Positions 7,014 to 64,000 of a stretch of DNA of 64,000 nt are shown in pieces (position 1 is the stretch's first letter; each line of letters opens with the position of its first letter). The DNA comes from Pempheris klunzingeri (Eukaryota; Chordata; Actinopteri; Acropomatiformes; Pempheridae). The notes below the pieces were generated by a model, which worked only from the letters and a program-made list of their open reading frames with translations, was not told the origin of the DNA and did not search any database. The stretch is taken from NCBI RefSeq assembly GCF_042242105.1, contig NC_092026.1, positions 19,570,691 through 19,634,690 on the forward strand, in the 5' to 3' direction. The translations under genes were made by a program, and so were the position numbers.

Positions 7014-7300
7014 GCAAGTATCACATGTTGTTGTATATGCATGCATGCATTAACAAAATGTAACATTTGTACACTGTTAAATACAATTTAAACCGACTGT
7101 ATGAGGTTTATGTGTAAGTTCTATAAATGAGGAGGAGCACTGAGTGAGAACAGGTGTTTCCAACAGACCTGCTGAATTATATTTTACATCCAGGACAGTG
7201 AAACTGCACCACAGTGTTAATGCTGACACTGATAGATATTTAGTCACTTTGTGTATTTTGTTGCAGTCAAAGGATCAACAGATTCTAACTTTCAGAAGAG

Positions 7301-12439: not shown

Positions 12440-12620
12440 AAGCCGTCCACCTCTTAGGTTTCTTCCCATTAAAGGGGAGTTTTTCCTCGCCATTGTCGCC
12501 TGATGCTTCCTCATGTGGGGATTCTTGAATCCTTAATTTAGAATTTTTGAGTCATTGAGTCTCTCTTAATTAAAGAATTTGGTTGTGAGATAATATTTGA
12601 GTTGGTGCTATATAGATGAA
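12440..12620. repeat. Dispersed teleost repeat next to the gene C stop
   Basis: Carries the frequent fish repeat wording 'ggtttcttcccattaaa' and 'gagtttttcctcgcc'. It ends about 20 bases from the stop codon of gene C, so it probably forms part of that gene's 3' UTR. The repeat class is not certain. Confidence 0.5.
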
Positions 12621-12639
12621 GACCGATTGATATTTGTAT

Positions 12640-14852: not shown

Positions 14853-15209
14853 CTCTTCTGAAACTCCTTTGTTTGCACGTTTAGCGTTTGTTCTGCAAGA
14901 CAGCAAACAGCATAATAACATTCAAACAGTTTATCACACCATGTAAAGAGTGTGTGTATACGTAGAAACACATTAAATTGTACATTGTTTTCTGCTGCTC
15001 ATCTTTTTTCGCCTCCCACAGCGTGTGGGAGGAAAAAACAGGAACAAATTCCTTTTGTTTGTCAACATATTTTTGATTTGAGAACCAAAGGAAGTGCGTG
15101 AGCGTTTAGTCTTTGCAAGGAGGAAGAGTTTATGTTGGTGGTGCTAAACCAAAATCGCATAACACCAACATGGGCGACTGTAGCATTCACACAGACCTTC
15201 ATTATGCTT

Positions 15210-16025
15210 CCTTCCCTTCGACATCAGAAGATGTCCAGCAGTGCCATCAGCTCAGAACTAGCAGAAACTAGTGGGACCCTGGTTCACCATCTACTGTCCA
15301 GAGAAGTCTGGCCAGAAGTGGTTTTCATGGAAGAATTGCGACCAAAAAGCCAAACCTCAGATGCAGAAACATGGACAAGCGACTCAACTATGCACAAAAA
15401 CAGAAGAAGTGAGGTGCAGAAAAATGGCAGCAGGTGCTCTGGACTGGACTCTTAAATATTTAGCTGTAGCAGAAGTCAGTTTGTTCACCAAAGGAGTGGA
15501 GAGCGGTACAATAACGAGTGTCTTCAGGCAACAGTGAAGCTGGTGGAGGTTCCCTGCAAGTTTGGGGCTGCATTTCTGCAAATGGATTTGAGGACTTGGT
15601 CAGGATGAATGGTGTCCTCAGTGCTGAGAAACACAGGCAGACACTTATCCATCATGCAACACCATCAGGAAGGCGTCTGATTGGCCCCAAATTTAAACAT
15701 ACAGCCAATGTCACCAGGAGCTATCATTAGCGTGAAGAAGAACAAGGAGTCCCGGAAGTGACAGTGTGGCCCTGATCTCAACATCATCCAGTCTGTCTGG
15801 GATCACATGAAGCGACAGAAGGATCTGAAGCCTGCATCTGCAGAAGATCTGTGCTTAGTTCTCCGAGATGTTTGGAACAGCCTACCTGCCGAGTTCCTGC
15901 AAAAACTTTGTGCAAGTGTACCTGGAAGAATTAATGCTGTTTTTGAAGGCAAAGGGTGGTCACACCAAATATTGATTTGATTTAGATTCTTCTTCTGTTC
16001 GCTCACTTTGTATTGTGAGTGAATA
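15210..16025 (+). mobile_element. Decayed Tc1/mariner element with transposase pseudogene
   Basis: Plus-strand reading frames, broken by stops and shifts, give Tc1-type transposase stretches such as VWGCISANGFEDLVRMNG and AEKHRQTLIHHATPSGRR (15560-15690). Further on come the region near 'catacagccaatgtcac' and a tail 'gcaaagggtggtcacacc'. The usual catalytic block between them is deleted. Terminal inverted repeats were not identified. It lies upstream of the gene C coding exons, probably inside its 5' intron. Confidence 0.8.
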
Positions 16026-16333
16026 TTGTCAAAGATCTGTTCAGGGCCAGACTCATCAAACATGATAAGAGTTATAGCCCCCACTGAACTTTTAGGCCCT
16101 GCCACCGCCACACCTTTAGACTTTTGTACACAAGTTTTATAACTTTTCATTATTAAGTCTTCAGCTACAAGATTGCCAGGTGGATCGAACAGCCTCAGAC
16201 TAGTTCAGCTGTTTATGACCCCAAACAATGGCCCAAAATGCACCTGATTTTGACAGATTATGCAAAATACCAGACTTCCTGTGCCTTTAGGTCTGGAGGT
16301 GATGACCATGATCATTAAATTTCATCTTTTTAA

Positions 16334-17325
16334 CCCTCCTGTTGTCCTCATATTCTGTATACACCCCGTGTCCTCCGGGTCAAAATGACCCATCTTCGTT
16401 AAACCCCCAATATAAGCAACTTAATTGAATTTGAAACACCAAATCTTATTTTGCTTGAAGAAACAACTTGTCATTCACCACAAATTGTGTGAATACCTGA
16501 GTTTTCCCTCTTCACCTGGCAGAAAGACTGCATTTATTCAAGACACCACTCATTGCTGTGACACTGTCAATTGTATTATTGTTTCTTGTTGTCTTGACTC
16601 CCGGTTATCAAATCGTAGCAGTCTTGAGTAGGTGTGAAAGAGTTTGAGTGGCATTGTGCCTCAGAAAATTGGCCTTCCACTCTCTGCATCCCATAGACTA
16701 GCTGCAGTCACATGACTGTATACACCTGCTAAGATTATGGGTATTATAGGGTATTCCTCCCCATCTTCTTCTTCTGATACATCCTCCACTTCCTCTTCTG
16801 AATTGTCTTGCTGGACATCTGAAAAAATCAGCTCTAGAGCCTGTTCGACGTTATGACGCGCACTCATGGCTTCAGCACAGAGATAATTCGGGGTACTGTC
16901 ATCTGCAGCACCTTTATAGCCTCTGGGAATCCACAGACAAAGGGGCAATATTGTTCCATTTGGGTCAGATCAAAGGCAGTGCAGTCTGCAAGAAGACCAC
17001 CTGTCTTGTCTTGTTTAGGTCTGCTACTGATTGATCTGAGACAGAACTAAAACCTTCTCACATTCTGTGGTGTGTAACTAACTCTGTGACTGTGATTTCA
17101 ACTCAATTTGACTGTCGGGTCATTTTGACCCGAAGATGATCTTTGTACCTTTTTTTGTACAGCTTACATGGAAATGTGAATAAAGGCAACAATTCACTTT
17201 TTCTAATGTTGGGGTCAATCTAGGAAAAGTCATCAAATTTCAAGTTGAAAAAATATCGTTTAAGGGAATTTTTTTTGGTTTTTAACACAGTGGCGGGTCA
17301 TTTTGACCCGAGGACAACAGGAGGG
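16334..17325. mobile_element. piggyBac-type element, internally deleted
   Basis: Ends are perfect inverted copies: CCCTCCTGTTGTCCTC at 16334 and its complement ending at 17325. Both are flanked by TTAA (16330-16333 and 17326-17329), the piggyBac target site. Subterminal GGGTCAAAATGACCC-like motifs repeat at both ends. Of about 990 bases only an N-terminal transposase remnant remains (16661-16948, minus). It is non-autonomous. Confidence 0.9.
16661..16948 (-). pseudogene. piggyBac transposase N-terminal remnant
   Basis: The frame contains MSARHNVEQALELIF followed by an acidic stretch (SEEEVEDVSEEEDGEE), typical of PGBD-type transposase starts. There is no catalytic DDD domain downstream. It is a truncated remnant inside the element 16334-17325. 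Confidence 0.7.
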
Positions 17326-17919
17326 TTAAGACAAAATCAAGCCATCGAGGCATTTCTGCTGGCCCATAAAATATCTAATTTATCACCGGCCCTGACGTGT
17401 TTGCAAGTTTTCATGACTTTTTGAATATGCACCTCGTTTCCTACAAATAAGATGAATAAAGAGTTACAAAAGGTTCCACACTTAGTGTTACACTCTCGGT
17501 GCTCGGGCCCTGAATATAATGAGTCGTTGTGTTTTTCTGGTTCATTCTGCATCGAGGTGACCCACTAACTCAGACTGAGTCAGTCTGAACTAATGAACAG
17601 ACAGATCAGGTTTTTCTCACATATTTGTCAACGAAGTCAAAACGGAAACAAACCTCAACAAGTTTCTGCTGTTTAACTTCTTACAGCAACGTTTATTAAT
17701 ATGTCTCTAAACATTCAGCAGTGTGTGTCAGTGTTAAATCTAAGTTTTACAAAGGAAGTGAAGCTGTTCCGTCCTGATGAATAGATCTACAGTATGTGAT
17801 CACACAAACACCAGATCTAAATATAATCATCAGCAGCAGTTTATTGACTAACTAGATTTGTGCCAAATCGTTGCCAGGGTACTAAATCAATTTGATATGA
17901 CAACAGCAGCTTTACTAAC

Positions 17920-18028
17920 CTGTAGCGCGACCTTCGCTCTGTCCCGGTAACAAACTGTTGCAAACAGCGGCTGTTTTTGAATGAAGCTTTGTGCAGCTCC
18001 ACACTTTGACCAGCGGGGGGCGCTAAAA
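17920..18028 (-). promoter_or_regulatory. Likely promoter / 5' UTR exon of gene C
   Basis: Reverse-complement match to the gene A block at 2065-2135. A splice donor on the minus strand (CTACAG|GTTAGT) ends at 17920. At 18008-18026 there is a CTCF-like motif on the plus strand (CCAGCGGGGGGCGCTA). The segment GGTCAAAGTGTGG (minus strand) resembles a DR1-type HNF4/PPAR half-site pair, but this part is not conserved upstream of A. Confidence 0.45.
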
Positions 18029-18048
18029 CAGCTGAGAGTTACATAACA

Positions 18049-18520
18049 CCAGTGGTGGAAACTACATTTACTTACTCAAATATGGTACTTAGGCTCAATT
18101 TTAAGGTATTAATAGGTGAGTATTTCCATCATATGCTACTTTACAGGGAAATGTTCCTACTTTTTTTTTTATGCCATAGCATTTCTTTGACAGCTACAGT
18201 CACTATGAAGATGAATCTTTTACATTCAGGATGTATGACTGACTTATAAAATATCTATTGTTAATAATTAAACTCCTCAATGGTATATTAAGAAGTTACA
18301 ATTAGCTCCACTTCGACCTGTTAAACTGCTGATGCATCTATATTATAAATCCAGTAATACAATAACACTCATTATGCAAAGTGAGTATTTTCACTTTTTA
18401 GTCTTCAAGTACTTTTCACAGCTGATACTTCTGTACTTTTATTTAACTAAACATTTCAATGCATGACTTTCACTTGTAATGGAGTATTTTTACAGTGTGG
18501 TATTGGTATAACAAATTAAG
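18049..18520 (+). mobile_element. Degraded CAGTGGTGGAAA-type MITE
   Basis: Starts with 'cagtggtggaaact', runs through the 'ttacaattagctccac' core (about 18296) and the 'cttctgtacttttatttaa' and 'gtaatggagtatttttacag' segments. These belong to a very common teleost hAT-like non-autonomous element. The right terminus is not clear. Confidence 0.7.
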
Positions 18521-19035
18521 TAAATTGTTGGTTCGAGGTCAATGTTATGATGATTTAATGTGCAATGTGTTGCAGTGATTGGAAGAATAACACATGAATA
18601 ATACATAGTTTCTGACATTCTTTAAGAGATGTTCAATACTCAGAGATACTATAAAAATATAAAACAGCTATTTAATGATTAATAATTAAAAAGCAGGATT
18701 TACTACATGGGTAGTATGGCCTGCTGACAATCTAACGGTCACAACATGCAGAGAACAAAGTAAAAAAAACTTTCAGAAAAGTGCAAAATTCTAATTGTTC
18801 TTATGACATAATGACAGTGTGGTTTGTCTTTAAATGTTCCTGTCTGAGCTGCCTGTGCTCGGCGCCGTAGGCTGCTCTGTGCCACTCTCACTTCCAGTTC
18901 AACTCCAACATTATTCACGTGAATGATTTGTAACTGTAAAAACAAACAAATCAACTTGAAGAATCATTATTTAGCTGCCCTAATCACAAAATGACATGTT
19001 TTTATAATTTTCAGTTTGTATGACTGTAATTGTAT
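18521..19035. other. Spacer downstream of gene D
   Basis: AT-rich, no coding exon recognised. It probably includes the 3' UTR of minus-strand gene D in its right part. Confidence 0.5.
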
Positions 19036-22000
19036 CTATAGTCTAGCTTTAGTCTGTGTAGCATCACAGCTCAGGTGAGTCCTGAAGAACTCCTGGATCT
19101 TCTTCCACAGGTGGACTTCGGCTGCTGCGTGGGACCTGGGCTCACCCCCCCACAGGACTTTGCTGTCCACGATCCCATGACGGCTGGAGGGGCAGTACGC
19201 TCCGTAAGGGGGCTCCAGCACATGTCCCGCTCCAGGGTAACACACAGTCTCAAAGTTGTCCTTCCCATGATGCTTCAGTCTCTCCTCCATCATCTCCATG
19301 TAAGCCTTGCTGTCCCAGTTCATGTCGTCCTCTGCGGCCACAAAGAGGAAACGTCCCTCTGCTCTCTCGATGGGGACCAGGCTGCCTTTGTTCTCCTCTG
19401 CCTGCGGATCATTTACAGCATACTTGCTGATGGCGGCCCCTGACTCAGTGGGAATCACCTTGCTGATGTCAAACATTAACGCTGGAAGGATCTGGCTCTT
19501 CTTGTAGAAGAGGGGGAGAGCGGTATTGGCACAGCAACCATTGATCCACACTGTGGCCTCAACACCTGGCAGGTAAGAGGCTATTGATAGAGCAAGATCT
19601 CCACTTTTTGAGAGTGATATCACACCAATTCCTTTACTGCCCACCTGTGGGGAAAAAAACACAGAATCCATCATTTATCCAGAACAACACAACACAGCTT
19701 CTCTCTTCTGAAGATGAACATCCACAGCACTTCATTGTATGTTGGGTCACCATTTATTGTAATAGCTATGAAGTTGCAGTATGACATTAAATACCTTGTG
19801 ATATGCAGGACAACTATTTTAAGGTCAGACACTAAAGGCAGAGATTAGCACAGAATTGTTATACATCTCTAGGGTGGAGGAGAGGGCATCAAGATGTCCC
19901 CAAACTTCACTCATCCTTAGCTTAGTAGCTAGCTAGCTACCACGGCTGATGATAATAACGCCAGCGACTGTAGCTATCAAGCTTAGAGCAGCAAAGTAAA
20001 AGTGCAATATCTTCTTCCTTGATTCTATAACTATTCCTTTACTGCCCACCTGTTCAGAAAGCTCTAGTCTCTAGTCTGCAAATTAAAAATAAAATAATTT
20101 TAAAGGGCCAGTCTGACAACTCACCTTCGGATGTTGTCTTAAAATCTCAGCTGCTTCTTCATAGTAGTCAAGATGCATCTCTTTGAGGTTAGCAGACTTG
20201 TCATTGAACACAGCTACTGCCAGAACCACATACCCTTTGTTGGCCAGGAGACAGGCTCTTTTCTCAGACAGAAAGGTGCCCAGATCCAAAATAGCAGAGA
20301 ACGGACCTTCTCCTAGAGCACAAGACATATGCGTTAGTATCAAATCACATTAAAGGTCCCATATTTAGCTCCTTTTCAAGTTTATATTTGTATTTGAAGG
20401 TCCTACTAGAACAGGTTTGCATTATATTTCTCATATCAGCTGTTTTCACTCATTTGTGCATGCTGTGTTGACATTAGCGAGGAAAAAAAAGGGGGGAGAG
20501 CGAGGTGGTTTCAGGAGGTTTTCAGAGGGCGGGAGCACTCTTCCTCCTGAAGGGCCAGAGGAGGTCACATGTCTAACAAATCTGCTTAAGACATCATAAG
20601 TCTAGACGAGTGCTTTCACACCTATTTCCTGAAAGATGGAGCTGGAGCTAAAGAGAGACGATGGTCTCTTTTCATAGTTTGGCAAGCTCTCAGCTCACCG
20701 GGTGCATTTAGCATAATATGGGAGTCCAGTATCTAACATAGTGTGCATCCTTATTCATTACCTTTAATTAACCAAATGAAAACCAGCTATTATTGAGGTG
20801 AACACACATGGGGTTTAGCTGAATATGAAGTGTTTGAAAAATAGCTAAACTACACACTTAAAACGAGCCACGTGTAAGATAAAGCCAGAGTTTGAGTTTA
20901 AAACGTTCAAAATTTAAGTGAAAAAGCACCAGAACGTGTACAACTATCAGTGCTGACATTATGTCGAAGGCATCTATGTGCTGTGTTGCAGAGATCTACT
21001 GAAGTTAGCACGCTAGCCAGCTAACCCCGGCCTGTACGTTCACGAGTGAGCCACTGGTGGAGAGAACAAAACGGGACTTTGTCTGTGATTTCTCATTGCT
21101 TGGCCAGCTTGTTTTCTGTCCACATCTTTACAGAGATCTTTCAAGCAGACGGAGCAGAGGACTCTGCTAAAGATGGGGAGGCAGACGGAGGCGGAGTCTG
21201 TGTTCACATCAATGATACTTAGTGCTAAAATGCAGTCAAAGTTGATGGATGATGGATTTTTCCCAGATGTTGAACTTTGAATGTGAAGATGAAGACCGTG
21301 TCATCATCGTTATCAATGCAGGATCATTTCCCCGATGTATGTAGGGCAGTATATGTATATAAATAACTGTACATATTGTGTTTTTACTTAATATTTGATC
21401 CTATTCTAGTTTCAATTTAATTACCTACAATATACAGTGTGTTCTATGTGTGCCGCCTATTTTTTTGGAGCAGGAGGCCAATTTCTACACGATGCAGCTT
21501 TAACACTTGTAAGGATTTTTTTTTTATTGAAAAAATGTCAAGATTACAACACACTATTAGGCTGAAATTAAATTATGAATACAGAAAAGCACCGACCTGG
21601 GGGAGTAAACAGGACTCCCCTGATATTCCCCTCTTTGAGGGGGAGCCGGCTGACACCATCTCCGATCAGGAGTCTCTCATTGGTCGCCTCTGCCAGCATC
21701 CTTCCTCCCCCCTCCTCCTCGTGCACAGAGAACTTCACCACATGGGGCTTTAACGAATTGGTCTTTTGAAACCTTTTGTGCAGAGTGTCTGCCCTCATCG
21801 ACCACAGCAGACCCATGGGTTCCACCCCGACGTAGCTCCCACTGAGAGAGGGGTCTCTCTGCAGGTCGATCTCCCCGCTCCCATCGGCCCTGTAGCTGGC
21901 CGAGGACCTGAACGTCACTCCCTTCTCGTCAGTGGATCTGGCTCTCATGGTGACCACCTGTCTGGACCTCAGCCCGGCCACCTTCACATGAACAGGCTCG

Positions 22001-22053
22001 TCAAACAGACATCGGGCACTTGGGAGCAGCATCAGTCTGACCTGGGATGTCAT
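19036..22053 (-). CDS. BAAT/ACOT-family acyl-CoA thioesterase or acyltransferase, gene D
   Basis: Minus-strand exons 21597-22053, 20125-20312 and 19036-19644, 417 codons. Closest to gene C in exons 1 and 3 (SLSKSGD nucleophile motif, probable Ser227; Asp321 in DDMNWDS; His356 in GHVLEPPYG). Exon 2 is the short A/B-like form (LGTFLSEKRACLLA) without the GGG loop. The C-terminus is ARL, PTS1-like. The MTSQVRL start is preceded by a probable 5' UTR intron with a donor near 22695 (ATCAAA|GTAAGT). Intron 2 contains a small duplicated copy of the exon-3 acceptor region. Substrate cannot be told from sequence. Confidence 0.9.
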
Positions 22054-22239
22054 CTCTTCTAAAGCTGAGGATCCTGCACACGTTTAGACTTTGCTCTGAA
22101 AGTACACAACATTATGATATTCCTTATCTGATTGACTGAGAAGTTTGTCATAAAATGTTAATTTAACACCATATAAAGAGCATGTGTATACCTGTAGACA
22201 GATTAAATTGTACAGAGAGGTGTACCTACAAATATATAC

Positions 22240-50100: not shown

Positions 50101-53100
50101 ACTAAGTGGATTCAATACCAGATTCAAATTCAATGAAATTCCATTGCACAACATCAGTGGTAACTTCTAAACAAATAGTTCCATCTCCTGTAATGTTTTC
50201 ATTGAATGATCTTGGAAATCATTGAAATTTTGATGGTTTTTAATGCAACCACACATATCCTACAGGGGTGTAAATAGAATAGATACAAGTCATTTAAATA
50301 AGTAAATAACACAGGCACAAATACAAATCTCCCTGCTCAGCTGTACCTGATGCTGGTCACACTGGTGCTGGCTACAGTGGGGCTGGGAACGCGAGTTACA
50401 TTAGTGTAGACACCCAGAGGTTGTGACGATGTGGCAGGATCACTTAAAAGTAGAGAAAAGGAGGTACAGGTGGAAAAAACTGTGCAAGGCAAAGAAAAAT
50501 ACAGTCACTGTAAAGAAAGGCATACAAGAAAGATATGGACGGAAAGGTCTGAAGATGCAGCAAAGAGAAGGAAAGAATAGGAGAGGAAAACAGGAAAGCA
50601 ACAGGAGGCAAAATACAGCTATTCAAACAAAATCCAAGATTTACCTCGAAGCATTGACCACCTCCTTGTTGGTGACAGGTTGTGTGTGTGAGCGATCCTG
50701 AACTCTTCTCAGACGCCTTTCCACTGCAGCATTTCGAGAGCGCGGTTTGGGAACTCCTCCATCTGATGTCCTTTCCAGCTCCTAGAAGAATATGTCAGAA
50801 AAACATCAGTAACTTGGTGTAATAAAGTTGTTATATTTGAAAACAAGAAATCTATAATCTACTTGAATGTCCCAGTTAACATCCAGAATTACACATCAAC
50901 ATCAGTGTCCACTGAACAAAGCTGCACCTTTTGGTTTTGGCTTTAAGGATTATGAGTATAAAACATTTCTATTCAAAAATATACAGTATTAATCATCTAC
51001 CCTTATTAATCAAATGTACATAAAGAGGGGAGTGTACCCTGAAGAGAGACCTCTTGGCAGCCACACTCATCTTGGCTCTATCATCCAGTTTTTCTTCATC
51101 TAATTAAAATAGAAAAAGAATGTTACATGGCATCAACTGTATTTAAACTTGTGGAAAAAAATCACTTAAGTATCCTTGATATGAATCATATATGCAACAG
51201 AAAGAACTTACCTTCAACATCCTGCAGCTGTGAGGGGCTTAGGCGAGACCTGCAGAAAACATTAATATATGTCAAGCATCAGTGTTTAGACCACAAGTTT
51301 GAATATGAGGACCCATTGGATACTATCATGATCTGCCATCTAATTCAGTGTGCTGTTCACTGTAAATAAAATGATTCTCAAGAATTCCTGCAGATCGTTG
51401 CAGAGAGCCCCTCCTGTACCTATCTGACTCCAGCCGCTCTGCAGAGGTGATGGGCTGGGTCCTAAACCTCTCCGACATGCGACTGTCTCCTGGAGTGATG
51501 TACCGTCGAGGCCTCCGGGCACCCCTGTCCCGATCACTGCCGCTAGCCGGATCTACCTCCATTGCTGACAGATCTACTTTAGTGGTCTCACTTTTCAAGC
51601 AATGGAAAATTTAGAAAGGTAGACGGGAACAACAAAAAGGAAAAGTAGAAGTAAGAAAACTATCAAAGATGTTTGTTTTTTATGTTTTAGTACACTAGCA
51701 GTTTACCAGAAACTGCTCTTGAGTTAGAAGAACAGGGTCTCACACGTTGACATTGGTGCACACACTGAGCACAATGTAACTACAACCTAACTGTGAAGAG
51801 CCATTACCCAAAGTTAACATGCAGCAGCAGACAACTTCCAAAGGATAACTTGCAAAAACAGATGCTAACTTGCACAAGTGAGTTAAGCTCTTAAAAACGA
51901 ACAAACAACAACAAACTACAATAAATACGATAATGGTAGATGCCATGACGATACACCTTGACACAGTTCATGCCACAGAATGCCATTCTTTTGGATCACT
52001 GAATAATATATTTGCAACAGCTCACTAATGCAGAGTTAGACAGTTATTTAGCGGTGCAACACAGAGCCCATGCCAGTGAACCTACAACTCAGGTTTCCGG
52101 TTGGCATTCTCCAGATAAGAGTGTCGCAGTTGTGCTACTGAGACCCTGGTGTCCAGAGTGCCCATCTCCCCGTTATCCATCTCTGATGGGGGGACAGCCC
52201 TCGATGTCTCTCTGCTGGCCGCTGCCCTCTCCATACGGTACTTGGCAGAATGCTGGCTTACACCTATATCTGACATGGAGCGGGTTCGTACCTTGGGTTT
52301 GGGCCCTCCACCGATCTCCATGCCTCTTTGTTTGGCCTGAGGCAAGCAGGAGCCCTGCTGGAGGTAGACAGCTGTGTCAAACCTCTGGTGCACTGATGGA
52401 TCCTGCTGCTGCTGCTTCCTCTGAGCCTCAAAGTCTTCATCTTGCTGTGGCTCTTGTTGCTTTCTTTGGGAGTCTTGCAGCTGACTTGGAGGCTCTTGTT
52501 TTTGGAGCTCATACTCCTGCTGTCTTTGAGACTGCTGTTGTCTTAGAGGCTCTTGTGGCTGTCTCGCGCGTTCGTATCGATGTTGCCTCTGAGGATCTTG
52601 CTGTTGAATTTGAACAACATGCTGTCTCTTTATGGGCTCGTGCTGTTGTTGCATTGGGGGGTCTTGCTCCTGAATTTCAGGCTCTTGATGGTTCATGGGC
52701 TCTGAAGACTGATGCTGCCTGGGTTGCTGGCGTACGGAGGAATGGGAAGGCTGCAGAGACCTAAACACTCTCTCCTCTTGCCTGTCATGGATAGAGAGAT
52801 GCTCTCTTCCTCTTTCTCTGATTCTCTCAACATTTCTCTCCCTTCCCCTCTCCCTCGGTCTGTCTCGATCCCAGTCTTCCTCGCCTCGGTTCATCCTCCT
52901 CCATTCTGGGCTGTAATTCTGGCAGTCCATGTCATCTTGCCGACCCCTTTGAGTATCATCGACACTCTTTTCCCTTCGACGGATCTCTGAGGGCAGCACA
53001 GCTTTCCTGCTCTTAAGCAGGCCTTCTGTATGGGCCTCTTCTTTCAGAGCCTGCCTGGCCTCCAATCTTGCCTCTCGGTGGGTGGCATAGATTTGGTCGG

Positions 53101-56100
53101 CACTCACTCTCCTTCGTGGTTGAACCTCAGGAGGTCCAGGAAGTTTGGCAGTTGCCACTGGGGCAGGGGTGGCCAAATAGTGCTGAGAGTCCACAGCAGG
53201 GCCAGAGTGTTGGTACTCAGGAGCGGAGGGAGGGTAGGCTGTTTGGCCATGGGCAGGATGGTGGCCTGGGCTGGGGTGGGGCTGGGGAACAGTCCTTTGG
53301 TGGGTGGGTTCTTGATGCTGTGGTGTATACTGAGCAGTGCTCCCGTGTGCATGGTGTCTGTTAGCCTGGTGCCTGTCTGGACTCCAGTCAGGGGGCCTCT
53401 GGGCATTTTCATCTCTGGACAATCGTTCCCTTACTCGGATTCTTGGGGAAAGGAACGGATAAGGGACACTGAGATTCCAGTTCAGTTCGAACTCAAAAGT
53501 CCACTCAAACAAGAGGTCATCTAAAGGGCCTATACCAAACTTTTTTTCCATGGGACACGACGAAATGATAAAATAAATCCGATACAATTTAAAATCCAAC
53601 TACATATTTTGAGTGGTGTACCAAAGCAATGATTGCCTACTTGCCTAGGTAGATAGTAGGACAGACAAACCTAACGCCCTAGTATTAACCTAGTAAATGA
53701 CTGACTGATTTTAACTTTGCACACACTTTATTAAATTCCCACTAAAAACAATGACTCCAGAATATCATGAATAGCATCAATGATGCGTGAGCTCAGCGCA
53801 TATTGTGAAACACATTGCACTAAAGCAGGGGTGTCCAAACTACGGCCCATGGGCCAACTGTGGCCCTTCTTAGTCTCATCGCTAGGGGGAGTAACTGTCT
53901 TGAACGAGGCAGCTTCTCTATAAAATGAGTAATAGAAAAAGAAATTTGTGTGTGACCCAAAATGGCAGAATTAAGGAAACGTAAGAGAGCAAGTGAGTGT
54001 AGAAAGTTTCAGACGTGGTGTGCGATGAGAGCACAGCTAATAACTAATGAAGATCACTTTTGCATTACGGAGGAGCTGCTTGATGTTAGCAGTCTAAAGA
54101 GCACCACGACGGGTGAGGATGTTTTTGAAGCTGTGCCAGATGCAGTTGGCATGATGGGAGTTAAATGGGACGAGCTGTGTGGAGGTACGACGGATGGGGC
54201 TCCAGCTGGGACAGGCGAACGCAAAGGAAAAAAGGAAACTACGGTGTCCACCGAGGGGCAAGAAAGTGGAGGTAAGACTGTTAATTCGAGCACCAGGGCT
54301 CGAGCACAGACTATTTCAAGCTTCCCTCTCTGGTGCTGGGGGGGGGGGGGGGGGGGGGGCGATATACATCACCTCTAGTGGATTAAAGTTAGCAATATAG
54401 CTCACTTCTAGTGAGTGGCCCAGCCCTTTGTGTGTTTTTCTGTATGTGGCCCTCAGTGAAAAAAGTTTGGACACCCCTGCACTAAAGGTTATGACATGAG
54501 ACTATCATGGAGCAAACTTGAGCTCCCAAAACATGCACCAGAATTGCAGCAAGGTCAAGTAGCAGCATGTCCTGGGTTTAAATTTGGGTCTCAGTTCAAA
54601 CAACTCTCTTTCTCTCTCTGGTGTCCTCGTGTCAAAAAAAGTAAGCCAAACTATTTTCATCTACAACCTTCTGACCCCTGGTAGCCAAAGGTTGCGCTAA
54701 TCTCATTGTAGACCACTAAGCCAGACATAATTGATGGGCCTCTGCTTTATCTGACACGGCATGAAGGACTTCTACAGTGCTTGTGCTACATGAGAACACA
54801 CTAATACTAACTAGCATAAGCAGCTGGTAAGACCTCAAAGATAGTAGGTGCTAGCAGCATACATTGGACATTTACACACACTAAAGATTTATATTTATAT
54901 ATTTATCAGAATGCTTTCTCTCGAGACATACAAGAGGCATACATACAAGAGAAGATGTTGTGTATGTGAATGTTCAATTAAATCAAAACTAGACTAACAC
55001 TCTCTAGAGAGGTTTGTCTGACCAAGTAAGCCATGCCTTTATGAATTTCACCTGTCCATGCAGCTCAAAGGCTGGCCATGAGCCTTCATCCTTTCATGGC
55101 TACCAGCAAGCCAGCTATGTCACATATCTGGGCTACTGTCTGCTCCAGAAATACATGTATATCCAAGGACCTAAAAACCTTAATGACAGATCCTCTAGAA
55201 CCACTCAGGTTACATCAAAGATTTCTGGTAATCTGTTTTTTTTTTAATCCTCTCAGCACATAAATATATCAGGTGATTAAAAAAACTTCATGCAAGCTCT
55301 GAAGGGGATGGATGGGGGTTACATGTCTTATGCAACAACATTGTCAAAATCACTAACAGGGTAAAAGACACAGATGTAATTTCATATGGGTTAACAGGCC
55401 AGAATCGGAGGAGGTGTGTGTGAGTGCAACCTCAGCTGACAAGTGCTGAGTCAGTGGGTCTGCAACTAACTGGGTCAGGGCTTCCAGCTGACTCATGCTG
55501 TCACCCCATCAACTCCAGTTCACTAACACCACTCAACTGCTCATGAAACCCAGGCCACACACAGCCACGCTAATTTAACAAGGATGTCGGCACAGAAAAT
55601 TGTATTGTGCTGAAAAAGGTTTGTTTTACAGAGTTCTGGGTATGTTTACAGAACATGATCCGACTTGTGTTTCTTGGAACTGTGCTCATGTGATTTCAGT
55701 GCAAGGTCTTTTAGGGACAAAGTCTTGAGTTAGGAGAGGCTATTCCTCTCATTTTAGCAATGGATGTTATAAGCTGACGAAAAGGACAACTGGTGTCTCC
55801 GCCTAATATTTAGTGCAACAAGATCAAACAAGAAAATACTCAGTTTGATACCCAGTTGGGCAGTAGAGGGGATGAATTCTTTATTATGCCACTATTAATG
55901 AAATGGAGGCCAAATCAGTTTGCTATTGTGACACTGTTTCTTTCAACTGTTTGATAAGATGATGGCAAAAAAGAAAAGTGAGTTTTAAAAATGCTGCTCA
56001 AGAAAAACAGGTGACAGTCTGTGTATGTCCTCAGGAAATCTTTAGGTGAATAAATGTTAAGTTGTAAGGCTAAGTTAGGTGATGAAAGTTGAAAGTCAGT

Positions 56101-59100
56101 TAAAAAATTAAAATCCACAAACTAGAAACACTTGTTAAATGGAAGACCACAACACCAGTTATTAAGGGAAGTATTACTCAGGGAAATAGAGTATTGCACT
56201 GTTATAAAGAACCTTGAATGAGTTAGCTGCATGTCCACCGAGGACATGTTCCTAAAGTGCTGGCTTACTATCTTGTTATTTTCCTTTGTTTTGTGTTACC
56301 AACAGTTATTATTACGAAGTATCTGCAAATTTCAGAATACAGAACATTTATAGATTTATAGAACAACTTTTTAAGACCTATAACAATGCTTTGAAGACAT
56401 ATCTAATGACTTTCATAACTTTAAGGACCCTTGCATATAATGTGAAAGACACGTGTGCAAGACAAAGAGCACTTTAGCACATTTTTCAGTAGTTACATGA
56501 ATATACTGTAGAATGAATCAGCACTTCCCTGATCATCAATTGAATGCTGCCAGCTGAGATACATGTACCCGGTGGACTACAGGGCTTTGTAAGGTCTTCA
56601 CACTGATGGCATCCTGAGGCAGACAGTACCTGGAAGGCCAGCTGGAGACCGTCTGAGTGTCACTCTCTGAGTCTGTGTTGAGAGACCAGTCGCTCTTTGA
56701 CAGGGCGGCCAGGCTACAGGATGATGTGGTGACAGTGTCAAACCCTGAGGGAAACTTCTGACCATTCTTTAAAAGATCAGAGCTGCACTCATCTGCTGAA
56801 CCATAATCAACAACATTTTCAGATGTTGTAGATGTTGATCAGTTTGATTATTGCTTAGAGGATCAGGTCGAAATTTCCTGTGTGTGTCCCTTTGCACATG
56901 TTGATCAAAAGTTTGTCATCAAAGTGCAGCTATTTTCAGATGTTGCAGAACTATTTTTTGCTGATGCCACTCCTTTATCATTTATAGCTTTTGGTTCATA
57001 GCGCTGTGTGCTACTTGTCTCGGCTTCAACGTCATCAAATCCTTTGTCATTGACTTTACTTGACACATATTACAGCTCTCATGCCTTTTGTCGCAACATA
57101 TTCAAGTTTATAATAGAAAGTGACAAGCTCTTCGCTGATGAACCAAGCTACTGTTAAATCAGGGTTACCTCTCGGGGCAAGCAGGGAAATCATATCCCCT
57201 CCAAAAACCAACCCTGCAATCTACCCTGCTGCCCTACAACCTTTGCCTGATGAGCTCCCCAGAGCACCTTTCTATGTGAAACTGAAGCAGGGCAAGCGTG
57301 ACAGAGCTGGACCCACCAGCGAGAAGGATCCTTGTACTGGTACAGTGGTAAAATCAGCAGGCTAGCTAGCTCAGCAGCCAGTGGACAGCCTGGCCTGCTC
57401 AGTTTCTCTTTGAGAGTTTTTACCTACTTGAATTTCTGCATGAAAAAAAATCTGGTAGAGTTTCAAGTCTAGCAATTAATAATTTGGTCACAAACAAGAT
57501 GTATCGCATGCACCTGAAAGAAGTTTCTAACAGCCAGTAAGGCAAGCAGGAGTCATTTAAACTCCCTGGGCCTGCATGTAGTCTAAAAATACATTGTAGA
57601 TGTCAGACTTTTCATGGTAAGATCCATGGGCAGCAATACTCAGAGATGAATTTAATGGTCTGTGATAACGATCTAGGCCATTTTGGAGCTACTGTTATGC
57701 TTGAATAAAAGTGTGTGCATAGAGTGAAATTAAAGTTAAAATTGGAGAATCCAAGTGGTGACAAAGATGTGGTAGATGTGTGTGCACTTAAAATGGTAAA
57801 TGCAATGTTTTTGCAGGACGTAATACTCAAAATCAGGTATGCAAGTTTAATTTCTTTAGATTATTCAAGTCCTATCATGTCTTGAGTTATCCACTGTATC
57901 AGACCTACGTCTTGGAGTGGTCAGTCTTACTTCATGTATCTTCTAAATCTTATACCTGGGTTTGTATAAACTCACCCCTGCCTGTTGAGGATGCTCTGGG
58001 CCTGCTGCTCTATGAATAAATCCCCAGGTGAGATGCCGTAACGAGTGGAAGGCAGGGAGGCCCGGCGGGCGGTGCGAGGTGAACTGGGCACCGCTGCAAT
58101 GCTGTAATCCCTGCTGGAGGCGGGGCTCGGCTCCTGGTGGGTGGCGTCCTGGTGGTGGTGGGGGTGCTGCTGCTGTTGGGGCTGGGGCGGGTGCTGCTCC
58201 TGGGTTCTGGCTCTAGAAGTGACTGAGCGCTCTTGAGCCCCACCGCGCCGGTAGTTCTCTATGTTCATCACTCTTTCCCGCTCCGAGAAACCTCTGGGTC
58301 TTTCATGTGTTGGAGGAGGAGCTTGGTTTGAGTGGGCGGGGCTGGAGGTGGAAACAGATGCAGGATCTGGCTGAGTCCTCATGTAAACCCTGCCCACTCC
58401 AGAGCGATATGGTACCCTGGGCTCCCGTCCTTGTTCTTCTACTTCCTGTCTGTTTCTGTCTCGCCTGGCAGACGTCTGCTGGTCAGAGGTGTCTGGATCA
58501 CGCCGAGAGCGGTAGCGTGGTGTGTAATCAATGTCCGCCTCCTGATCCAAGAGGATGCCATAACGCTCTGACAGCTGGCGGCGGCGCTCAGCTTTGTAGC
58601 GAGCGATACGTTCAGCCTTAGAACTGAGGCTGGTGGGGTCTGTGGGGCCAGATGTGGGTGTAGAGGAGGTGGATACCGTTACTGGGTCAACATAAACCAA
58701 CACTGGCTCTGGACGACCGCTGCCCACACCACCTCTGACCTGAGATGATCTGTCTACAGATGAAGGCTGCTTTTGGGGTGCCTCCAGCTCCTCACGACTG
58801 TAGCGCCTCACTATGGTAAATAATAATAAAAAAAAAAACTCCATTACTTATTGACAACCTTCACAAAGAGGAATTACGCCCCATTCATGTCATGTGGGAG
58901 TTACTGTAATTATCAGGTTCTGACTTGTAATACAGTTCATGTCAACCTCTAACTAACAATTACAACTGGACATATTTTTCAGAAGGCTCAGCTATATCTT
59001 CCAGAATTTAAAGTACTTCTGATCTGATATATCAGACTTGGTGATAAATAATGTGGAAATGCTTTAAAAAGGAAATAAATATGGATGGCTCGTGCCAGCT

Positions 59101-62100
59101 GAAGAGCAGAATTTAAGATAACTAATTGAATGGATGAAGTGCAATTGACATAGTACTTTTTAAATCTCACATAATTAACTCTCTAATGACTCGCCACCTT
59201 CCATCCCACATGACACAAATGTGGTATTTTTCTAACACATCACAAATATTCCTGTCGATTACTGAATTCACTTCTTGCAAAATGCAACAACATGCGACAC
59301 TGCTCAGAATGGTTTGCATTTTATTTTCACTGACACAGTGAGATTCATTAAACCATCAGTACAGCTGCCCAGTATAACCACAAATATCAGCTACTGGTCA
59401 CTGTGCAGCTCCACTGGAGGTACCAGAAGTACTTAATCACAACACTGTAAATCACATGGCTTACAAATAGTGAATGGCATACGTGTGTTAATGGTTCTTT
59501 TTCAAATTCATTAGTGTCATATATTGTCATCATACATTTTTGCAGTGCATTGTACCATGCTTACCCATCACACATGGCTCACAGGGGTCTGAAGCGCGGG
59601 TGTACCGCGGTTGATCCTCCTCCAGCATTCTGTTGGCTACCAAACCGCCTGGCACCAGTGCAGGTGGAGCATCACCTTCAATCCCCTCCAGGCGTCGCGC
59701 TATCCTGTCCTTCCTGTCAGAGGCCAAGCGCAGACGGTAAAGGTGAACGCCTGTTGAGCTGAGTTAGTCTTTATGAAATTAGACATATTTTTGTGGAAAT
59801 ACATTGTAGTGAAAATACCTATTCATTCTCAGATCCTTTGTGACAGTTGTTTCGAAGTATTTCTTCAACTCTGAAACTGAACATTAGAACAGAAGATATA
59901 AATATTCAGTATCATAAAAATGCCAAAAGTAACAAACAATTTGTTTCATTCTGAGTCTTCGTGTGGGGTTAGAACCAATGCACACCCTTGGGAAGGGCAG
60001 CCAGAAGTTTGGCATCTGTATCTGAAACACTCTTGACCAAGTTGGTCTTGTCATCCAAGGAGAAGTCACTCTGAAAACTGAAAGAGAAGACAGAGTCAGA
60101 AACCTGATGGACAAACAAGAAGAAACGTATTACATCCTGAATGCCTACTGAACGCAAAGACATGTGTAATCTGAGCAGTTGATTAGGATTTCTTCCTTCT
60201 TTATAGGAGCAGGTGATTTATTATAATTTAATCAGTATTATTAAATGGCTTTGTCGAATCAATTGGTCAATTTAAGCATCTTATGGTCTGTTGTTCCTGT
60301 ATAGCAGACCATTGCTATGGATGCAGTTCTGATAGTGGAAGCAATAAAATAGATTTTAAATCGCTGAACCTTTTTAATCAAAATTTTGTGTTATTGTTTT
60401 TAAGAGGCATATAGTTCTCAAATTGAAATTCTTTAATTATCATTTCCTCTTAATTCCTTACACATCAATTATGAGCGCACATGAAGCTCTTGGAGCAAAA
60501 GTTAAGGCAAGTTTGAACCTCATTATTTTGATTTTTTATCTTTAAAATCAGATTTTACCTATCAAATCTTTATTTATAGGTCTGGATAAATCTTATTCAA
60601 AAATATACATAGTTAAACAGGGGAATTTTGTCTTACATTGTTTTGTAGTGAAGTGAAGCTATTTTGCTTACTAAAGCATTAATGCTGAACAACCAGAGGA
60701 AACGCTGTAAACTAATGCTAAAGGGGGCTTTGTGCAAAGTGCTCCTGAAGGAGGTATTATGGCTCTAATGCCATGTGAACAAAAAAGTGTCTGAGGATAA
60801 GCTGTTCCAGGCGTCTCCAGCTTTTAATGCTTACTGCGCATGATAAGATAAAGTGCTCTGCTGCTGTAAACCCATATCCTTACATATCCCTATCTTGATG
60901 ACAAGGCAAAAAAGACACAAATGTACATGCTCTTGGAAAACAGAAGATGTAATTTCTGTGGCTGCTCTTTTTGCCTTTAAACCAGAATATATAAAACTGG
61001 TGTTCCTTGTGACATTCAGTAGGGGTAGTTCAGTATTTGACCGATGTCTACGGGTGATGGTTGCAAAAAAAAAACCTCACCTTAAGGCTTCTGTTGGCAG
61101 CGAGGTTGAGCTGCAAAGTTTGGTGGGAGCTTTGGATCCAAATCCTAGAAAGAGGAACAAGACTCAGTCAAACTTAAATAACAAAAAAATCTATACTCTA
61201 CCATTCAGGTCAACACTGAGCATCTTAGTGGGGGCATTGGGAGTATGGAGCATGTTATCTTTGTCGCCATTTTTGGCATTTGGATCTAAAAAGACTCATA
61301 TTATGTTGTCATTTCACTGAGACTCTTGATTTAGCAGAGTCCTGCTCCAGCTAAAAATGTAGGATTGCCCAGGAAAAAAAAACTAACCTGGCTCAATTTT
61401 GGCTATGACACAATGTCATGCCATTTATTCAAGGTTCCATTAGCATTCAAATGCAATGAAATGCATGTGCCTTGGTTCTCACAGTGCTTTAAACTTAGAA
61501 ATAAATAAAGAAATAAAACATGAGGAAATAACAAGATCAATAAATATGAAATCCCAGAAAATCTCCCAAACCAATAAATAATAAAGCTGTAAGGTGCCTA
61601 ACATTCACAATTCTCACTGCCTGGGGTATGGCACAGTATTGTCCAATCAATTACTCCCAAACTGTCAAAAAAGAATATAAAATGACTGTTGTCAGAAATG
61701 TAAAATCATGTCTAATAGTATCATAAACTGTGGTGCAGTGCTTTGGCGTCAGATAAGCCTTGGATGGATGTGATACAGAAACTGGACCTCCTGAATCTTA
61801 TTTTATTGTCTTTTCGGCATCTGAGGGAACACGTCCTCACAGGAACAACTCTAACGACCCCTTGAAAGTACATTTTAAAGGTTGTTTGTGTAAATATCTA
61901 TTATTTTATCATAATTATCATTAATGCACTACAACCACTGTATTCACCGTACTCACTGTAATCATATCAACTCAACTTTTTTGTCATGTTACCACTCCTC
62001 TAAGAAACTGTACTGTATTGTATTAAAACATGCAATGCTGGTAAAAGACACAATAAATGGTTGATATGCAACCGAAAATAACTAAAAGAAGTCACGTTCT

Positions 62101-63519
62101 TTCTCTAAGAGTAAACACAATGTTCAACTCTGACGGGAAATTTCCAGCCTCAGTCTAAGTCACTTGTCCAAATAAAAAAGGTTACTCAGAAAGTTCACAT
62201 CCAGTTCCCAGCTGACAGCTGACCCTTTGGCTCTCACGTCACAGCTACAGCAACCTGTTGTAAAGTTGTATCCCAGTATAGGAGACAGATCACGTTACCG
62301 CTCCAGACGCTTCCAGAAGACCTCGGGCTCATTCTGGCCTCCAATGACTGTGTGGCAATACAACAGGGAAGTCCTAATGTCCTAATGCTCACTTAGACAT
62401 CAAGTTCAAGAGTTTCTCAGTGTTTTGTGAAGAGAAATTCGCTGAAATTCAAAAATTCAAAAGTGACGTAGTGAAGTGATGTAAATCAGTATTTGACATC
62501 AGTAAGGCCAGAAATCTTAACTGGAGGTCTTCATTTTACAACTATTGTGCCGTACTGTGACAACTTTGGCTTTATTTCCATACTCCATACAAACATTTGA
62601 GGTCTTTGAGGCCTGTGGGAATCTTGTGGAGGTGTGTGCACATGTATCTGTCTGTTCATCTGTCTGGAAAGTCCCTTGTACAGAAGTCAGTCTTGCTTTC
62701 CTTGGAAACGCCTGTAGGTTGTCAACAAAACAAGAAGCACTTGGCTCAACCCTGGCAGTGCCAGAGAGCAGCTTATGCTGCTGACGGTCCCAAAGTGAGC
62801 GTGGTGAGGAGAGGGATTTTCTATAAATATTCAGGTGCAAAATAGACTCTCTGAGTGAACTCGGCCTTCACTTGCACACAATCTGTTTGGAAAGGTTGCT
62901 AGTTGAACAGCTCTCCTCTACCACAGCAGACAACGATGGGGTGCACTGATACAACATCAGAGATTAGGAAAAAGCACAACTGATAGCACATAGCACCACA
63001 TACATGTTTAATGAGGAGCGCAAAATGAGTTTCACTGCTCAATCATGAATCCATCAATGCGAAGCAGCTTAATGCTAGCATTCATACCCACGGTTATAGA
63101 TAAACGTGCAAATCGTCTGCATTTACTCATAATATCCCAAAATCCTTAAACGCCTGAGACAGGGATGAGTCCCTCTTACACATGCTGTGAATCCTCTTTT
63201 CATCTGATCCAACCAAGAAAAAAAATGCAAAGTAAGGAGTCAACCAAGAAACCTCACCGCCTCTCAGCCGGTCTTGCCAAGCCAAAGTCCCCTGCTTATT
63301 GTATCACTGGCAGGAACCAAACATGGCCATTTGTCTCAATAAGGAGCTACTGTAAATTGCATTAGCCAAGTCCCCCAAGCAGTCTATGGAGTTAAGGGTA
63401 TTCAAGTGGGTTAAGCGAGCCATCCTATAGCCAAGCCTTCCCCTTCCAAAGGCCTTACCTTGGCCACAGGGTTGCACATGGTTCACATGGTAATTAGAGA
63501 TCCATGGGTTGCGAAACAT
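24331..63519 (-). CDS. svil: Supervillin, 38 exons placed
   Basis: Actin- and myosin-II-binding membrane-cytoskeleton linker of the villin/gelsolin family (in muscle the long form is archvillin). Exons, 5' to 3': 63459-63519, 62299-62347, 59986-60077, 59819-59876, 59565-59713, 57976-58810, 56630-56782, 52086-53441, 51420-51590, 51212-51249, about 51039-51099, 50645-50781, 50347-50442, 48829-49120, 45526-46246, 43300-43819, 41403-41535, 37798-37945, 37083-37178, 36897-36977, 36533-36710, 36247-36425, 35817-35972, 35244-35380, 34491-34638, 33798-33943, 32923-33098, 32641-32788, 31632-31911, 31229-31380, 30791-30896, 29954-30161, 29651-29784, 28933-29088, 28672-28815, 28146-28267, 27590-27745, 24331-24417. 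All have GT/AG ends and compatible phases. The sum is 2686 codons plus stop, taking exon 11 as 62 bases (one base uncertain there). The mammal-type start is Met85 of this model. Confidence 0.95.
24418..27589. other. Last svil intron (3.2 kb)
   Basis: No additional coding exon recognised. Holds a pyrimidine-rich stretch (24895-24955), a perfect palindromic CRE (TGACGTCA, 25194-25201), a (GT)n run at 25386-25404, an A run at 25614-25628, and a candidate MITE at about 26943-27410. Confidence 0.6.
26943..27410. mobile_element. Candidate MITE with imperfect inverted ends
   Basis: Left end 'ctaccatatttccttaaata' and right end (reverse complement) 'ctactatatttcccccgaaa' are similar for about 14 bases. 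The inside repeats the words 'aataaaggc' and 'aataaagacc', as in a widespread class of short inverted-repeat elements. The target-site duplication is unclear. Confidence 0.4.
27590..35972 (-). CDS. svil: svil exons 23-37: gelsolin-like repeats and start of headpiece
   Basis: Fifteen compact exons encode the gelsolin-homology repeats, roughly residues 1870-2600 of the long model. Hallmarks: [172 protein letters not shown]. Exon 36 gives [20 protein letters not shown] and exon 37 [20 protein letters not shown], leading into the headpiece. In supervillin these repeats serve protein interactions rather than filament severing; that is family knowledge. Confidence 0.96.
28424..28622 (+). mobile_element. 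Right half of CAGTGGTGGAAA-type MITE
   Basis: Contains 'gggccattctgcataatgag', 'tacttttgtacatttactta' and the terminus 'cttcttccaccagtg'. This is the right end of the common teleost hAT-like element; it lies in the intron just beside svil exon 35. Confidence 0.75.
32400..32572 (+). repeat. SINE-like dispersed repeat
   Basis: Has the frequent fish wording 'tttagcacctttctagtc', 'cactttgacatgcggact' and 'ggatcgaactgctgat'. It sits about 70 bases from the donor of svil exon 28. Confidence 0.6.
35076..35110. repeat. (TG)n microsatellite
   Basis: About 17 consecutive TG units in the intron between svil exons 24 and 25. Confidence 0.95.
36247..41535 (-). CDS. svil: svil exons 17-22: linker to the gelsolin repeats
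   Basis: Exon 17 (41403-41535): [20 protein letters not shown]. Exon 18 (37798-37945): [20 protein letters not shown] and [18 protein letters not shown]. Exon 19 (37083-37178) is Ser/Pro-rich. Exon 20 (36897-36977): [14 protein letters not shown]. Exon 21 (36533-36710): [20 protein letters not shown] and the [13 protein letters not shown] segment. Exon 22 (36247-36425): [20 protein letters not shown] and [19 protein letters not shown]. All are strongly supervillin-like. Two phase-0 candidate cassettes lie between exons 17 and 18. Confidence 0.93.
38530..38607 (-). CDS. svil: Candidate svil cassette exon, 26 codons
   Basis: Acceptor with a long pyrimidine tract (…GCATCCTCAG) and a strong donor (AGTCAG|GTAAGG) bound 78 bases, phase 0 at both ends, the phase of the intron between exons 17 and 18. 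Encodes [20 protein letters not shown] then IDHHSQ, no stop. It lies in a wider purine/pyrimidine-skewed region, so a chance match cannot be excluded. Confidence 0.55.
40314..40370 (-). CDS. svil: Candidate svil cassette exon, 19 codons
   Basis: Bounded by AACCCCTCAG and CTGTGG|GTAAGA; 57 bases, phase 0 at both ends, same intron as 38530-38607. Encodes [19 protein letters not shown]. The codons look ordinary and there is no stop, but no homologue is remembered. Confidence 0.55.
41536..43299. other. svil intron 16
   Basis: No coding exon seen. A splice-like segment near 42575-42660 was tested and contains stops in the needed phase. Confidence 0.6.
43300..46246 (-). CDS. svil: svil exons 15-16: disordered Arg/Gln- and Pro-rich linker
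   Basis: Exon 15 (45526-46246) follows GEVQQ with [20 protein letters not shown] and then a long Gln/Arg/Gly/Glu-rich stretch. Exon 16 (43300-43819) is a Pro/Gln-rich quasi-repeat (units like [12 protein letters not shown]) ending [15 protein letters not shown], the conserved lead-in to exon 17. These exons correspond in position to the region that distinguishes muscle archvillin from the short form, but I cannot assign isoforms. Confidence 0.88.
47547..47612 (-). CDS. svil: Candidate svil cassette exon, 22 codons
   Basis: Bounded by TGTCCACACAG and GACCAT|GTAAGA; 66 bases, phase 0 at both ends, matching the exon 14-15 intron. Encodes an acidic segment, [20 protein letters not shown] then DH. 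Confidence 0.55.
48829..49120 (-). CDS. svil: svil exon 14
   Basis: Encodes an acidic/Gln-rich start, then [20 protein letters not shown] and [19 protein letters not shown], the conserved supervillin block. Phase 2 in, phase 0 out (CAG|GTAAAA). Confidence 0.92.
50347..51590 (-). CDS. svil: svil exons 9-13: conserved central block
   Basis: Exon 9 (51420-51590) encodes [20 protein letters not shown] then [14 protein letters not shown]. Exon 10 (51212-51249) is a 38-base microexon ([12 protein letters not shown]). Exon 11 (about 51039-51099) gives [17 protein letters not shown]. Exon 12 (50645-50781) gives [20 protein letters not shown] and [12 protein letters not shown]. Exon 13 (50347-50442) is Ser/Thr/Val-rich. 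Motifs of the type RFRTQPIT recur here and in exon 14, a known feature of the supervillin middle region. Exon 11 boundaries are given to within one base. Confidence 0.88.
52086..53441 (-). CDS. svil: svil exon 8: large Gln-rich exon
   Basis: 451 full codons. Begins [14 protein letters not shown], then a His/Pro-rich part, an Arg/Glu-rich part ([16 protein letters not shown]) and about 110 residues very rich in Gln with Q, QQ and QQQ runs. It ends [16 protein letters not shown], a conserved supervillin segment. The donor is CCTGAGTT|GTAGGT. Mostly predicted disordered by composition. The Gln region is much richer than I remember from mammals. Confidence 0.9.
53826..54479 (+). mobile_element. 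hAT-type element, deletion derivative with 8-bp TSD
   Basis: Terminal inverted repeats CAGGGGTGTCCAAACT (53826) and its complement ending at 54479 are flanked by identical 8-base CACTAAAG (53818-53825 and 54480-54487), the hAT signature. Subterminal 'ggcccatgggccaactgtgg' is typical of this group. A plus-strand frame (from 53962) keeps transposase-like remnants such as [20 protein letters not shown] and [19 protein letters not shown], then breaks down. About 650 bases; non-autonomous. A G run lies near its right part (54340-54359). Confidence 0.92.
54340..54359. repeat. Poly-G run
   Basis: About 20 consecutive G bases inside the hAT remnant; could form a G-quadruplex and is prone to length error. 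Confidence 0.85.
56630..56782 (-). CDS. svil: svil exon 7 (153 bases, symmetric, possibly skipped)
   Basis: Encodes a Ser/Thr-rich segment with [18 protein letters not shown] and ends VSSWPS, followed by RIRVRERL from exon 8, matching the WPSRVKVREKL of mammalian supervillin. The acceptor (GTGCAG at 56783-56788) has a poor pyrimidine tract but is the only one seen that keeps phase 2. Because it is 153 bases with phase 2 on both sides, skipping it keeps the frame. Confidence 0.75.
57976..59876 (-). CDS. svil: svil exons 4-6: conserved N-terminal region
   Basis: Exon 4 (59819-59876) holds the mammal-type start (MN, then R across the junction). Exon 5 (59565-59713) gives [17 protein letters not shown] and [15 protein letters not shown], clearly matching the supervillin N-terminus. 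Exon 6 (57976-58810) carries [20 protein letters not shown], the basic motif typical of supervillin, then a low-complexity Ser/Arg/Gln/His-rich tail with a QQQQ-HPHHH run. In mammals this N-terminal area binds myosin II and F-actin; that role is inferred here by homology. Confidence 0.92.
59986..63519 (-). CDS. svil: svil upstream exons 1-3 (N-terminal extension)
   Basis: Exon 1 (63459-63519) begins at the first ATG after an in-frame TAG at 63553-63555 and encodes [20 protein letters not shown]; its donor is CCAAG|GTAAGG. Exon 2 (62299-62347) encodes [15 protein letters not shown]. Exon 3 (59986-60077) encodes [15 protein letters not shown] and then a stretch ending LLAALPK. Phases 1, 2, 1 lead without a stop into exon 4 ([16 protein letters not shown]), just before the mammal-type Met at 59826. 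Together they add 84 residues to the familiar start. The weakest junction is the exon 3 donor (AAGG|GTGTGC). No domain is recognised. Confidence 0.7.
60078..62298. other. svil intron between exons 2 and 3
   Basis: Contains the alternative exons 2b/2c at 61081-61285. Otherwise AT-rich with no other coding exon placed. Confidence 0.6.
61081..61285 (-). CDS. svil: Candidate alternative N-terminal svil exons 2b and 2c
   Basis: Exon 2b (61202-61285) has acceptor TCTTTTTAG and donor GAATG|GTAGAG. It is phase 1 to 1 and encodes [20 protein letters not shown] then MLSVDLN. Exon 2c (61081-61144) has acceptor CCTCTTTCTAG and donor TTAAG|GTGAGG. It is phase 1 to 2 and encodes [20 protein letters not shown]. 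Together they could replace exon 2 between exons 1 and 3 without a frame change. They could equally belong to a transcript with a different first exon. Confidence 0.5.
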
Positions 63520-64000
63520 GTTTAGGGAGAAGAACACAAGGATGCCCCACTGCTAGACTCCCTTCCCAACAACGGCGGTGACGGTGGTGGACAGCAGGCG
63601 TGGCAGCGCTGGAGGCTCGGGCTGCTACCGGCAAGCAGACAGGCAGGGATGGAGGTGGTGTCACGGCCACACACACACACGGACAAGCACACAGCCACAG
63701 CAGAGTGACTGCCCCGGATACACAGCAAGCTACAGCCAACACAGACTGGCTGTCCTACAGTGTGCGTGTGTCAGTGTGCATGTCAGTGTGTGTGTGTGTG
63801 CATGCAAGGTAACTGAGAGAGAGAGACAGCAGGGTGCTAAAGCAGCTCAGAGCCCTAATCAGATTACAGGCAGAAATTAGCCTTGATGATAAAAACTCTG
63901 GGACAGGATTGGAGGAGGGTTCAAGCAGGGCTGCAGTGGGAGGTATGGGGTCCATGGCTACTGGAAGTCAGATGGTATCCTTAACACACACACACTTACA
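63520..64000 (-). promoter_or_regulatory. svil: svil upstream 5' UTR / promoter-side sequence
   Basis: Upstream of the ATG at 63519 the minus strand has an in-frame TAG at 63553-63555. A more GC- and CpG-rich piece follows (about 63560-63640, CCGTCACCGCCGTTG), with CA/GT simple repeats at 63670-63685 and 63750-63805. It is consistent with a first exon and nearby promoter, but the start site cannot be read and the window ends here. Confidence 0.4.

Follow-up and report, generated by a model that had tools for sequence, protein, structure and literature searches.

Where the protein product of a teleost supervillin gene (svil) begins is the question raised by the window analysed here, a stretch of 64,000 nucleotides from Pempheris klunzingeri (contig NC_092026.1), whose own positions are used throughout. 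In mammalian SVIL the upstream exons are 5' untranslated. A preliminary description of the fish locus had proposed that four exons, joined in phase, encode an N-terminal extension of 84 residues ahead of the usual, mammal-type Met.

The gene that carries these exons is, judged by its predicted headpiece and gelsolin repeats, supervillin. The C-terminal piece matches the supervillin headpiece (PDB 2k6m/2k6n, molecule 'Supervillin', E 3.8e-13, residues 2–39 of the 67-residue chain), and gelsolin repeats (PF00626) passed the Pfam cut-off in two of the three supervillin pieces scanned (E 4.6e-17 and 7.5e-05), the second of these overlapping pieces being contained in the first; the third piece scanned, that of the headpiece, had no Pfam match. 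Exons 4 and 5 encode the conserved N-terminal start of supervillin (M[KN]RK[ED]...). This start and the N-terminal motif, the gelsolin repeats and the villin headpiece are all common to this gene and to vertebrate supervillin (SVIL, SV1) and archvillin (SV2). The first eight residues of the conserved start were also checked against the zebrafish svila start, as derived from a morpholino: the exon 4 junction here, ATGAATAG followed by GAAGGACAGG, corresponds to the zebrafish start ATGAACAGGAAGGAGCG, and the reverse complement of the morpholino, ATGAACAGGAAGGAGCGAATTGCAC, corresponds to the start at exons 4 and 5 here (PMC4944918, excerpted text). An open frame of 505 codons on the minus strand (52082–53599), mostly a single predicted exon (53441–52086), is rich in Q, R and E and belongs to the N-terminal half of supervillin.

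The exons that bear on the start of the protein all lie on the minus strand, and their open frames, phases and splice signals can be read directly from the DNA. Exon 5 of svil (59713–59565; acceptor 8.1, donor 7.8) is preceded by exon 4 (59876–59819, 58 nt), which has an acceptor at 59876 or 59870, an open part followed by the mammal-type Met (MNR), and a GT donor. Upstream of it lie exon 3 (60077–59986, 92 nt), with a GT donor and an AG acceptor at 60077 or 60070 (use of the latter is written 3'); exon X (61144–61081), with an acceptor of 10.8 and a donor of 11.7; exon 2 (62347–62299, 49 nt), whose AG acceptor and GT donor give a weak splice sum of 9.1; and exon 1 (63519–63459, 61 nt), which contains the ATG of MFRNPW and a GT donor scoring 11.3. 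The four exons of the preliminary description (1, 2, 3 and 4) were all reproduced, their stop-free, in-phase join giving 84 residues ahead of the MNR Met, and the in-frame stop said to precede the first ATG was found in the exon 1 reading as a TAG. Several in-frame joinings are open, viz. 1-2-3-4, 1-X-3-4 (89 residues), 1-2-X-3'-4 (103 residues before MNR, or 101 with the other exon 4 acceptor) and a direct join of exon 1 to exon 4. No in-frame Met occurs between the first ATG and MNR in the joined readings, and an extension therefore needs exon 1 or another ATG-bearing first exon.

The two acceptors of exon 4 are spaced 6 nt apart and stay in frame; those of exon 3 are spaced 7 nt apart and shift the frame, and the choice between them therefore decides whether exon X fits together with exon 2. 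When exon 3 begins at 60077, exons 2 and X are phase-identical (both enter in phase 1 and leave in phase 2), and exon X is in frame as a substitute for exon 2, not after it. The splice sum of exon X (22.4) exceeds that of 37 of the 38 downstream exons of at least 60 nt, which are predictions of this analysis and not public annotation, and only 4 of the same 38 predicted exons score lower than exon 2; a splice pair of at least 22.0 arose in 6 of 300 shuffles. With moderate confidence, we favour a 5' end for this teleost svil gene in which transcripts would start at about 63.5–63.7 kb and run through exons 1-2-X-3(60070)-4, so that about 103 extra residues would be read from MFRNPW. This reading keeps a coding extension ahead of the usual Met, as proposed; the exact 84-residue version bypasses exon X, the strongest upstream candidate, and for that reason is probably not the main form.

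The significance of these chains was assessed with an exon-chain model built for this analysis on a general codon table and general splice frequencies; starting from every possible ATG, it seeks the highest-scoring in-frame chain that reaches exon 4. At an exon penalty of -13, and with the exon 4 acceptor at 59870 in each case, the gain over the MNR start is 19.7 for 1-2-3-4, 26.2 for 1-X-3-4 and 33.4 for 1-2-X-3'-4. Among 1000 dinucleotide shuffles at penalties of -11, -13, -15 and -17, the score of 1-2-3-4 was matched by 66, 8, 4 and 5, that of 1-X-3-4 by 9, 1, 0 and 0, and that of 1-2-X-3'-4 by 1, 0, 0 and 0, respectively. The best chain found by the model was never matched, either in 200 whole-region shuffles (at -11, -13 and -15) or in 300 (at -13 and -15). 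This best chain is exactly 1-2-X-3'-4 at -15 and -17 only; further small exons enter at -9 and -11, and at -13 (gain 35.0) it adds a 15-nt exon (63272–63258) that was discarded as implausible. The upstream chain as a whole exceeds chance. Of 200 shuffles, 200, 199 and 145 contained an in-frame chain that scored better than the MNR start at -11, -13 and -15, respectively. Because such chains are common, open exons in matching phase are by themselves weak evidence; the earlier argument that random introns would rarely give three of them fails as worded.

Real DNA was also used as a null. The best chain was matched by none of 32 minus-strand and none of 32 reversed decoy stretches. For 1-2-3-4, the minus-strand stretches matched the score in 4, 0 and 6 of 32 cases at -11, -13 and -15, and the reversed ones in none of 32 at any of these penalties; the minus-strand decoys had been built by excising predicted exons, which biases them in favour of an extension. 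The plus-strand decoys matched the best chain in 31, 27 and 21 of 55 cases, and 1-2-3-4 in 44, 44 and 38 of 55, at the same three penalties, and were judged a poor null because they contain codon-like antisense of the gene's own coding exons. When the gene finder was run free over the whole gene, it left out exon 4 at penalties of -11 to -15 and joined exon 3 to an earlier acceptor of exon 5, at 59750; exon 4 was used at -9.

The contribution of individual exons was resolved by shuffling one exon region at a time, with 300 trials for each. The observed score was matched in 68 trials for exon 1, 65 for exon 2, 1 for exon X and 0 for exon 3 at a penalty of -13, and in 53, 64, 0 and 0 trials, respectively, at -15; exon 1 by itself is not significant. 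Codon content was scored by the codon usage of the long exons predicted for this same gene and compared with 2000 open intron stretches. It was equalled by 261 of these stretches for exon 1, 4 for exon 2, 147 for exon 3 and 283 for the part of exon 4 ahead of the Met; for exon X the numbers were 156 in the 1-2-X frame (21 codons, tested against 20-codon stretches) and 436 in the 1-X frame, and all of these values are optimistic because frames and borders had been pre-selected as open. Fisher p values, which are optimistic for the same reason, were 0.00065 for the five exons of 1-2-X-3'-4, 0.0012 for the four exons of 1-2-3-4 and 0.039 for 1-X-3-4. The better reading of this DNA is one with an in-frame coding extension ahead of the usual Met.

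Four other accounts of these exons have to be weighed. We regard it as unlikely that the chain is exactly 1-2-3-4, with its 84 residues, and that exon X is unused or only alternative. This chain is open and in phase, and it draws on the codon content of exon 2 and on a low Fisher p value over its four exons, but it skips the best exon candidate, lies 13.7 below 1-2-X-3'-4 at -13 and is the named chain whose score was matched by 8 (at -13) and 66 (at -11) of the 1000 shuffles.

A second account, which we also consider improbable, is that the upstream exons are real but 5' untranslated, with translation from MNR and an open frame that is fortuitous or a relict. Exons 1, X, 3 and 4 have only mildly raised codon content, which agrees with it, as does work on zebrafish svila, in which a translation-start morpholino at the equivalent ATG brought the protein signal, normalised to tubulin, down from 2.48 to 0.65 (PMC4944918, excerpted text); because this MNR-directed morpholino cuts the signal, the zebrafish svila protein is probably made mostly from MNR. 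In the excerpted methods of the same paper, the svila morpholino and the 5-base mismatch control are printed with identical letters, so that one of the two seems to be misprinted (PMC4944918). Against untranslated upstream exons stand the codon content of exon 2, the run of about 100 codons over five exons without a stop, and the first ATG of exon 1, which has an A at -3 and is in frame through MNR in three multi-exon open chains. Three out-of-frame ATGs (63955, 63803 and 63781), which may or may not be transcribed, precede MFRNPW in the window and count against the favoured reading.

A third account, in which exon X takes the place of exon 2 to give 89 residues (1-X-3-4) or the two exons are alternatives, appears to us quite doubtful. 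The strong splice signals of exon X, the open frame and the scarcity of shuffles that equal its score speak for it, but the codon content of exon X is poor in this frame, exon 2, which has the best codon content, is left out, and the Fisher p value is the 0.039 given above. It is very improbable that the gene starts with exon 4 and that the upstream exons are not real, since the chance appearance of an in-frame chain scoring higher than the MNR start in 199 (-13) and 145 (-15) of 200 shuffles is outweighed by the complete failure of shuffles to match the best chain (0 of 200 and 0 of 300 over the whole region) or 1-2-X-3'-4 (0 of 1000) at -13, by the rarity of a splice pair as strong as that of exon X, and by the absence of a GC or CpG promoter sign just upstream of exon 4, where the DNA is ordinary (GC 0.40, 3 CpG).

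A candidate 5' untranslated region or promoter for the favoured chain 1-2-X-3'-4 is a GC-rich stretch on the minus strand (63470–63769), 50 nt of which are shared with exon 1. This stretch, the best of 41 nearby windows, has a GC content of 0.58 and 12 CpG, and it is no CpG island because its observed/expected CpG ratio is only 0.48; its GC content was equalled by 2 of 441 non-exonic windows and its CpG number by 14 of 441. The joint splicing of the upstream exons, the transcription start site and the use of the first ATG are what we infer from these features. Transcription would start near exon 1, at the GC-rich stretch, the short upstream exons would be joined to exon 4 by splicing, and translation from MFRNPW would add about 100 residues at the N-terminus. 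The frame would allow several splice forms, with exon X in or out according to the choice of exon 3 acceptor, or with exon 1 spliced directly to exon 4, and a shorter form starting at the MNR Met may coexist through leaky scanning or another first exon. The extension would presumably lengthen the disordered N-terminal region, which is myosin II- and actin-binding in mammals, where these activities are assigned to the N-terminal half of supervillin (PMC4944918, excerpted text).

If this reading is true, annotations that start the protein at MNR miss about 100 N-terminal residues, and start-codon morpholinos against exon 4 could miss the longer form. SVIL is relevant to heart muscle disease, and zebrafish knockdown has been cited as evidence in this connection (PMC11906354, excerpted text). 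We raise, tentatively and as a possibility rather than an expectation, a broader proposal: that teleost supervillin has an N-terminal segment of about 100 residues encoded by exons 1, 2, X and 3 and the front of exon 4, with X alternative, which in tetrapods may have disappeared or become 5' untranslated exons, and that the myosin II/actin-binding end of the protein would be altered by it.

Among known forms, archvillin is distinguished from supervillin by two sequences inserted within the N-terminal region (PMC6192639, excerpted text), and the excerpted texts mention for neither of them an added N-terminal segment ahead of the usual Met like that of the proposed fish form. Among the literature matches listed for fish supervillin and its paralogs, for isoforms and for upstream or alternative first exons, there was no mention of an N-terminal supervillin extension, and a literature search with six peptides from the extension and start gave no paper. 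Searches with the extension gave one sub-threshold match in Pfam (AAT, E 0.17) and four chance-level matches in PDB (best E 0.24), and scans of viral and prokaryote sequence collections gave no relative, as expected for such collections. There were no Rfam matches at gathering score in 55000–64000, no exon-spanning repeats in 59700–64000 and no exon-spanning tandem repeats in 57500–64000.

A site at 58612, in a motif common to supervillins, bears on the relationship of this gene to individual zebrafish paralogs. Zebrafish has four genes (svila, svilb, svilc and svild; PMC4944918, excerpted text), and the forward in situ primer for svilc given there matches at this site with 1 mismatch in 21 (next best 7); a good match to the reverse primer is absent from the window, the best having 5 mismatches in 20, in two places that both lie outside svil. 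The forward match, in a shared motif, offers a lead that the gene may be svilc-like. Beside svil, on both strands, the window also contains copies of a BAAT/acyl-CoA thioesterase-like gene (3098–22083). The one piece of this neighbouring locus that was scanned (4178–4870) matches BAAT_C (E 4.5e-62), and the pieces at 8400–9092, 12640–13281 and 19036–19674 resemble it by eye.
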